Shown here one piece after another: positions 50,329 through 62,275 of a DNA stretch of 64,000 nucleotides. Position 1 is the first letter of the stretch, and the number at the start of each line of letters is the position of its first letter. This DNA is from Halapricum salinum (GTDB taxonomy: Archaea; Halobacteriota; Halobacteria; Halobacteriales; Haloarculaceae). Location: contig NZ_CP031310.1 of assembly GCF_004799665.1 (NCBI RefSeq), forward strand, positions 1,418,887 through 1,482,886. The letters run 5' to 3'. Made by a program: the position numbers and the translations under genes. Under the pieces are notes generated by a model. That model was not told where the DNA came from, searched no databases, and saw nothing but the letters and a program-made list of their open reading frames with translations.

Positions 50329-50399
50329 GCGCCGGTGGTCCAGTGGTAGGACATTAGCTTCCCAAGCTAATAGCCCGGGTTCAATTCCCGGCCGGCGCA
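50329..50399 (+). tRNA. tRNA-Gly (anticodon CCC)
   Basis: 71 nt. Acceptor GCGCCGG/CCGGCGC, anticodon arm TTAGC-TTCCCAA-GCTAA, T-arm CCGGG-TTCAATT-CCCGG, discriminator A. Pieces of its 3' end recur 170-225 bp downstream. Confidence 0.95.
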
Positions 50400-50547
50400 T
50401 AGCGAGGTCGAACGAAGTGAGACCTCGGACAGTGAGCGGGGAACGCAGTGACCCGCGAGCATTTCTGGATTCGAACAACTCGTGAGCGGCAAATGCAACT
50501 TTGCGGGAATTGAATTACGGCAGACCGACCGTAGTGAGGTCTGGCAT

Positions 50548-50623
50548 CGGGTTCAATTTCCGAGTGACACGGTCACTCGGTGTTCGCGATCGCACCGGTG
50601 ATCGCTCACTCCCGGCCGGCGCA
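50548..50623 (+). repeat. Interrupted duplicate of the tRNA-Gly 3' half
   Basis: CGGGTTCAATTTCC (50548-50561) matches the T-arm of tRNA-Gly. After about 48 bp of short palindromes TCCCGGCCGGCGCA (50610-50623) is identical to its last 14 bases. Direct repeats of a tRNA 3' end are the usual trace of integrase-mediated insertion. Confidence 0.5.
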
Positions 50624-50747
50624 CTACCACTTTTTACTTCGTCGGGTTTCCTCGGCTGCCTTTGGCAGCCTGCGGGAACCTCTCTCTGCTCACGGCGGCT
50701 TCGCCGCCGTCCGCATGGTCAGCGGGACCGACGGTCCCGCTCGACTT

Positions 50748-56607: not shown

Positions 56608-56714
56608 GTGACACCCGATCGGGGGTGTCGTCGAACTCGACTCAAGACGATAGCGATCACGTCCACGGGTAACAGTGGACGTGTTCCCGCCTAACCCCCC
56701 TGCTCTGCAGGGGA

Positions 56715-58187
<1,473 letters not shown>

Positions 58188-58283: not shown

Positions 58284-58355
58284 GGGCCCATAGCTCAGTG
58301 GCAGAGCGCCGCCTTTGCAAGGCGGAGGCCCTGGGTTCAAATCCCAGTGGGTCCA
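58284..58355 (+). tRNA. tRNA-Ala (anticodon TGC) in the 16S-23S spacer
   Basis: 72 nt. Acceptor GGGCCCA/TGGGTCC, anticodon arm CCGCC-TTTGCAA-GGCGG, T-arm CTGGG-TTCAAAT-CCCAG. The usual spacer tRNA of euryarchaeal rRNA operons. Confidence 0.97.
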
Positions 58356-58504: not shown

Positions 58505-58556
58505 GTGTGTACGTGCGATCCAGGCGTCCACTGGACTCGTTCATCGAGTTACAGTG
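58505..58556 (+). other. 23S pre-rRNA processing stem, 5' arm
   Basis: Blocks GTGTACGTGCGATCCAG, TGGACTCGTTCA and ACAGTG are complementary in order to 61613-61664 beyond 23S. The unpaired CGTCCAC-type interruption is consistent with a bulge-helix-bulge cut site. Confidence 0.78.
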
Positions 58557-58561
58557 ACGTT

Positions 58562-58685
58562 GCATCTGCTTAGCAGATGCGAACGTTGCAACCGTTTCGA
58601 CGGTTGCACATCGTCGCAACTACATCCGTAGTTGCACCCGCAACTCTTACGAGTTGCAAACATCGCAACTGCATTCCGCAGTTGC
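58562..58685 (+). repeat. Array of five tandem stem-loops before 23S
   Basis: Arms/loops: GCATCTGC-TTA-GCAGATGC (58562-58580); TGCAACCGT-TTCG-ACGGTTGCA (58587-58608); GCAACTAC-ATCC-GTAGTTGC (58616-58635); GCAACTC-TTAC-GAGTTGC (58640-58657); GCAACTGC-ATTCC-GCAGTTGC (58665-58685). Arms share GCAAC/GTTGC in four of five and differ only in paired positions. They lie between the 23S processing stem and the 23S 5' end. Function unknown. Confidence 0.85.
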
Positions 58686-58692
58686 ACACAAG

Positions 58693-61606
<2,914 letters not shown>

Positions 61607-61612
61607 ATACCG

Positions 61613-61664
61613 CACTGTGACTCTTTGAACGAGTCCAGGCGCTATCTGGATCGCACGTACACAC
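61613..61664 (+). other. 23S pre-rRNA processing stem, 3' arm
   Basis: CACTGTGACTC, TGAACGAGTCCA and CTGGATCGCACGTACAC pair with 58505-58556, closing a helix around the five-hairpin array and 23S. Confidence 0.78.
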
Positions 61665-61720: not shown

Positions 61721-61842
61721 TTAAGGCGGCCATAGCGGCGGGGCAACTCCCGTACCCATCCCGAACACGGAAGATAAGCCCGCCTGCGTTCCGGTGAGTA
61801 CTGGAGTGCGCGAGCCTCTGGGAAACTCGGTTCGCCGCCTAC
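61721..61842 (+). rRNA. rrf: 5S ribosomal RNA
   Basis: About 122 nt, starting TTAAGGCGGCCATAGCGG, with CCCATCCCGAACACGGAAG and GGTTCGCCGCC at the closing stem. 3' end approximate to two bases. Confidence 0.96.
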
Positions 61843-61862
61843 TATTCATACCGTATTCAAAC

Positions 61863-61893: not shown

Positions 61894-62022
61894 CGTCATT
61901 TATACAGTCACGAGTGGCGACGCTATCTTTCGTAGTGCCATCGCCGTCGGGACCGCGTGATCGGCGAGAGGGAAGTACGAGACCGCTACGCTTAAACGCG
62001 AAAGCCGGGTAGATAGAGGTGC

Positions 62023-62137
62023 GCCAAGGTGGCAGAGTCCGGCCGAACGCAGCGGCCTGCAGTACCTGCAGACTCGCTTCGCTCGCCTGCCGATGTCGAC
62101 CACTCGTTCCTCGCGGTCGACAGCCGCCCATCGCCGG
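62023..62137 (+). pseudogene. Interrupted, 3'-truncated tRNA-Cys copy
   Basis: 62021-62062 is identical over 42 bp to the start of the intact tRNA-Cys gene, up to the base after the anticodon. A 59-bp insertion (62063-62121) follows. 62122-62137 then continues the tRNA exactly from position 38 through the 5' T-stem, after which similarity ends, so T-loop and acceptor 3' strand are lost. The insertion sits at 37/38, the canonical archaeal intron site, but I see no bulge-helix-bulge. A CTTAAAC box ~30 bp upstream could still drive it. Confidence 0.75.
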
Positions 62138-62199
62138 CACGATCGGCGTGTCGGCCAGAACATAATCCCTATATCCTTCGGACGAGGAACTTCATACGC

Positions 62200-62275
62200 G
62201 CCAAGGTGGCAGAGTCCGGCCGAACGCAGCGGCCTGCAGAGCCGCCCATCGCCGGTTCAAATCCGGCCCTTGGCT
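62200..62275 (+). tRNA. tRNA-Cys (anticodon GCA)
   Basis: 76 nt. Acceptor GCCAAGG/CCTTGGC, anticodon arm GCGGC-CTGCAGA-GCCGC, T-arm GCCGG-TTCAAAT-CCGGC. A CTATATCC box about 27 bp upstream is its promoter. Position after 5S is usual for haloarchaea. Confidence 0.95.

Follow-up and report, generated by a model that had tools for sequence, protein, structure and literature searches.

The rRNA operon and the predicted pre-23S leader

The window, i.e. the whole 64-kb stretch of DNA analysed here, carries the only rRNA operon found in the source Halapricum genome. The operon and the elements bearing on 23S processing were located as follows.

56716-58187: 16S rRNA (Rfam)
58284-58355: tRNA-Ala (ARAGORN/Rfam placement)
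58505-58556, plus strand: 5′ strand of the 23S processing stem (GCGU at 58524-58527, bulge CCA at 58528-58530, inner stem at 58531-58556)
58530-58692, plus strand: predicted excised pre-23S 5′ leader (from BHB geometry with the inferred cut and mature end)
58687-61607, plus strand: 23S rRNA (Rfam RF02540, 2893 bits)
61613-61664, plus strand: 3′ strand of the 23S processing stem (bulge UAU at 61643-61645, predicted cut between 61644 and 61645)
61722-61843: 5S rRNA (Rfam)
62200-62275: tRNA-Cys (ARAGORN/Rfam placement)

Folded together, 58505-58556 and 61613-61664 paired at -97.4 kcal/mol and formed a canonical 3-4-3 BHB, with a 4-bp helix (GCGU/GCGC) between the 3-nt bulges CCA and UAU. EndA cuts at a BHB by a known rule, which was used to place the cuts, and on this model pre-23S cleavage would be expected between 58529 and 58530 and between 61644 and 61645. 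The mature 5′ end of 23S rRNA, which we take from known haloarchaeal 23S starts, presumably lies near 58693 (UUGGCUACUAUG); the Rfam 23S model begins at 58687. The 5′ leader predicted in this way is ~163 nt long, and most of it is filled by an array of hairpins. Haloferax volcanii requires this stem and its BHB to make circular pre-23S as well as mature 23S (PMC7038931, PMC7714728), and EndA cleavage with ligation into circ-pre-23S is shown for both H. volcanii and Halobacterium salinarum (PMC12558985).

Other repeats were noticed in the window. The 16S leader (56650-56716) contains two hairpins, CACGTCCAC/GTGGACGTG and CCCCTGC/GCAGGGG, the second of which stops 3 nt short of the Rfam 16S start; both recur in relatives with altered arms, mostly with a conserved TTCCCGCC between them. 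The 5′ half of tRNA-Cys (GCGCCAAGGTGGCAGAGTCCGGCCGAACGCAGCGGCCTGCAG) has a partial second copy upstream of the intact gene (62022-62068 and 62196-62240), and an apparent decayed copy of the 3′ end of tRNA-Gly, GGTTCAATTTCCG...CCGGCCGGCGCA, with hairpins close by, lies at 50540-50625, downstream of tRNA-Gly itself (50329-50399).

The hairpin array in the window and its counterparts in haloarchaea

Five perfect hairpins stand in tandem at 58562-58685 in the 23S leader of this Halapricum-type haloarchaeon (Haloarculaceae), as the initial annotation had described, with the inner strand of the canonical BHB processing stem upstream and mature 23S rRNA downstream.

58562-58580, plus strand: hairpin 1, GCATCTGC(TTA)GCAGATGC, 8 bp, loop TTA (equal to arms of 9 with a 1-nt loop)
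58587-58608, plus strand: hairpin 2, TGCAACCGT(TTCG)ACGGTTGCA, 9 bp, loop of 4
58616-58635, plus strand: hairpin 3, GCAACTAC(ATCC)GTAGTTGC, 8 bp, loop of 4
58640-58657, plus strand: hairpin 4, GCAACTC(TTAC)GAGTTGC, 7 bp, loop of 4
58665-58685, plus strand: hairpin 5, GCAACTGC(ATTCC)GCAGTTGC, 8 bp, loop of 5

The arms of 7-9 bp and loops of 3-5 nt given in that annotation apply to these hairpins. Likewise, the stem base GCAAC/GTTGC attributed to four of the hairpins is common to hairpins 2-5, hairpin 1 having GCA/TGC only, and the canonical BHB co-fold confirms the long 23S processing helix inside which the array had been placed.

The segment 58557-58690 folded at -65.8 kcal/mol, compared with -33.1 ± 3.7 kcal/mol for 200 dinucleotide shuffles, none of which was equally stable (z = -8.9). 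Perfect hairpins with at least 7 bp and a loop of 3-5 nt numbered 48 in the 64-kb window; five of them fell within a single 135-nt stretch, the array, and the maximum per 135 nt in 20 block-shuffled 64-kb windows was two. These comparisons rule out a chance origin of the cluster. A known RNA family was rejected, as Rfam gave no family at gathering score over 58557-58690. No copies of the array were found elsewhere in the genome, and the stem-base pattern GCAACT...AGTTGC had three matches in the array and one in a hairpin elsewhere; dispersed palindromic repeats (REP/MITE type) or a mobile element were ruled out by the uniqueness of the array. Intrinsic terminators were rejected by eye, there being no T-runs after the hairpins.

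The homologous leader segment was then taken from whole genomes across the order and from named contigs, giving 166 distinct sequences, the shortest 26 nt and the longest 270 nt. Every leader that reached about 85 nt contained at least two tandem hairpins (6-15 bp, loops of 3-8 nt, spacers of 0-10 nt), compared with a mean below 0.7 in shuffles of the same segments, and short leaders were mostly hairpin-free. At this site, arrays with unrelated arms occur in 13 genera belonging to four families, the number of hairpins per leader ranging from 0 to about 7: Salinibaculum has 2-3, Halosimplex 3, Halorientalis 2-5 and Halapricum 4-5, and all 12 Halobacterium species compared carry an array, of about 6-7 hairpins when imperfect ones are included. 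The genus Halobacterium was recognised by exact plasmid matches in two of these genomes (H. noricense and Halobacterium sp. DL1), and a stretch of pNRC200, tried on nine Halobacterium genomes, did not reveal H. salinarum among them. Genomes of one family (f5) mostly have a single hypervariable hairpin, at times two or none, and the same conserved flanks, GGGTCAC and GATCCGA, lie on either side whether or not a hairpin is present. Since many haloarchaea lack any hairpin at this site, the array is not a required pre-rRNA assembly platform, a role that had been suggested for it, and a universal maturation element was rejected for the same reason.

Four other Halapricum genomes have a divergent second rRNA operon (L008-L014), whose 23S leader contains a single unrelated hairpin and whose 16S-23S spacer contains a sequence resembling a tRNA, perhaps a degenerate one, in which the anticodon arm is odd. 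In one genome of the Halobacterium group (G146), a second 23S leader on a 5-kb contig (L197/L255) resembles one from another family (L184), reflecting either contamination or transfer.

A more restricted role in maturation would have the 23S-adjacent hairpin position a nuclease for the mature end or for opening of circ-pre-23S, the other copies being duplicates. The last hairpin ends ~7 nt upstream of the mature 23S end, and the 16S leader of all operons compared also has a hairpin ending ~3 nt before 16S; however, many species with the same operon have a hairpin-free 23S leader, and both the distance and the sequence are variable. We consider such a signal improbable.

Compensatory changes and the level of constraint

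Arms resemble each other within an array, common motifs being GCAAC in the window and GTGAG, GGAGGTCC and GAGAC in other arrays. They are more alike than arms of different genera: the mean longest shared word was 4.03 within arrays versus 2.87 in permutations, and 0 of 5000 permutations reached the observed value. Close species differ by whole hairpins, missing or extra: one Halobacterium (G139) shows the exact deletion of one hairpin with its spacer, hairpin 5 of the window is absent from the other four Halapricum species compared, which have four hairpins each, and Halorientalis varies from 2 to 5. These unit-wise changes are counted as differences between species.

Among the 12 Halobacterium species, 12 base pairs were altered on both sides, and the covariation score exceeded that of each of the 500 shuffles and of every slid control. 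One-sided changes there nearly always leave a G.U pair, except in one hairpin, for which seven species have a shorter alternative form. Five double-changed pairs were found among the five Halapricum species, hairpin 2 of the window having three compensatory pairs in the other species. Alignment of the spacers of relatives, a check proposed with the initial annotation, thus showed that pairing is kept, that arms covary and that copy number varies. As judged from these comparisons, evolution preserves the fold of these leaders rather than their sequence.

Covariation had initially been read as a sign of selected RNA structure. Replication template switching, however, has been proposed to create and maintain perfect RNA hairpins together with multi-base compensatory changes (PMC8794818), so that covariation within an array does not by itself prove selection on the RNA. 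The arrays could then be a mutational by-product, palindromes being made and re-corrected in an otherwise neutral stretch that is tolerated since it is removed, with no selection on the RNA. The rapid turnover of copy number and sequence is in keeping with this, as is the largely Watson-Crick pairing (97-98%) of the stems, in which G.U intermediates are scarce (G.U makes up about 1.6% of all pairs) despite many double changes; the rarity of G.U would also be expected from palindrome correction at the DNA level.

Because template switching can yield compensatory change, G.U and A.C mismatches were compared on the transcript strand, where a constraint on the DNA palindrome only would make G.T and A.C equal. 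Under the stricter detection settings G.U exceeded A.C by 16 to 3 (one-sided binomial p = 0.002), and with looser definitions of a hairpin p rose to 0.012 and 0.058, these counts being small and phylogenetically non-independent. The unpaired positions are also strand-biased, the 62 distinct spacers containing 29 G versus 126 C. The mismatch bias and the G-poor spacers favour selection on the transcript, so that the constraint probably acts on RNA rather than on the DNA palindrome alone; the earlier reading of the covariation is strengthened in this respect. In addition, the stem-base pattern occurs only once outside the array in the genome. The arrays share with template-switch hairpins the perfect stems, the compensatory multi-base changes and the appearance of hairpins as units, but differ in having many tandem copies at one site, across families, with a strand-specific mismatch bias. 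A by-product without RNA selection is rather unlikely in our estimation. Both processes may be at work, with template switching as the source and RNA folding as the filter.

Proposed insulation and the probable fate of the removed leader

Eighteen arrays were folded with their native flanks (the 5′ strand of the stem and 150 nt of 23S), with 25 shuffles each. In 17 of them the array was predicted to pair with its flanks less than the mean of its shuffles, and in nine less than any of the 25; cross-pairing of the window array was 9.1 versus 31.4 ± 8.4, and one leader (L223) showed no insulation. Cross-pairing is low because the hairpins are perfect, and these folding models thus show what the arrangement would achieve, not that insulation was selected for.

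The explanation that we favour, with a probability of roughly 0.6, is that the array is a modular self-folding insert of the pre-23S leader, an insulating filler removed with the leader. Flanked by the BHB processing stem and by 23S helix 1, it occupies a site where length and sequence are nearly free and the contents self-pair as short perfect hairpins with G-poor joints. Local copying, replication template switching or both would generate new hairpins, and only copies that fold back on themselves would be retained, since a leader that had paired with the 23S 5′ domain, or with the 5′ stem strand while this awaits its partner, would impede closure of the stem, cleavage by EndA or folding of 23S. 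The array would then be removed together with the leader at maturation of the 23S 5′ end. Several points count against insulation as the reason. Many haloarchaea are hairpin-free, so insulation would be needed only where extra sequence is present; interference by the leader may be slight, given the strength of the stem (-97 kcal/mol); and a purely neutral filler makes much the same prediction.

The array can be set beside known systems. The operon and the canonical BHB stem are the same as in the EndA-dependent circ-pre-23S pathway of H. volcanii with RtcB-type ligation, and circ-pre-23S is predicted to include the stretch that holds the array; hairpins are not mentioned in the available text of those reports (PMC7038931, PMC7714728), relative to which the arrays appear as an additional variable element. 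Like rRNA expansion segments and intervening sequences, such as archaeal 5S expansions (PMC7812874), the arrays are lineage-specific self-folding insertions in a ribosomal transcript, but they sit in transcribed spacer that is removed and not in mature rRNA.

Small circular RNAs that extend from the BHB site almost as far as the 23S start have been reported from H. salinarum, in a paper whose available text does not describe a hairpin array (PMC12558985). This span is the position of the array in all 12 Halobacterium species compared, and the circles therefore most likely correspond to the array segment, as judged from other Halobacterium leaders. The removed leader of Halobacterium is thus probably the source of these circles, and excised leader RNA probably accumulates in this relative; such circles would imply that some of the leader RNA is set free ahead of its joining to the 3′ trailer. 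The same circles could point to a stable, perhaps circular, small RNA or protein sponge acting in trans. Against this, no conserved sequence and no loop motif common to different genera was found, copy number ranges from 0 to 7, and small-RNA enrichment in the H. salinarum data may inflate by-products; we regard a functional excised RNA as highly improbable. There is likewise only a slight chance that the array, once excised, builds up as a circular RNA of several hairpins and plays a part of its own, such as holding back a protein that binds double strands or assembles ribosomes, and that this role is tuned between species by the number of hairpins.

No earlier description of such arrays was found in the literature searched; older papers on halobacterial rRNA operons and spacers may mention the Halobacterium hairpins. 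The element is best read as a real, recurrent and selected-looking part of haloarchaeal pre-23S leaders. It offers a natural series, from no hairpin up to about 7, at a single fixed site in four families, in which sequence is nearly free and self-pairing is kept. The constraints on archaeal pre-rRNA leaders thereby become testable, as does the choice between selection and replication template switching as the process that maintains perfect RNA hairpins, and the array suggests a concrete source for the small circular RNAs already seen in Halobacterium.
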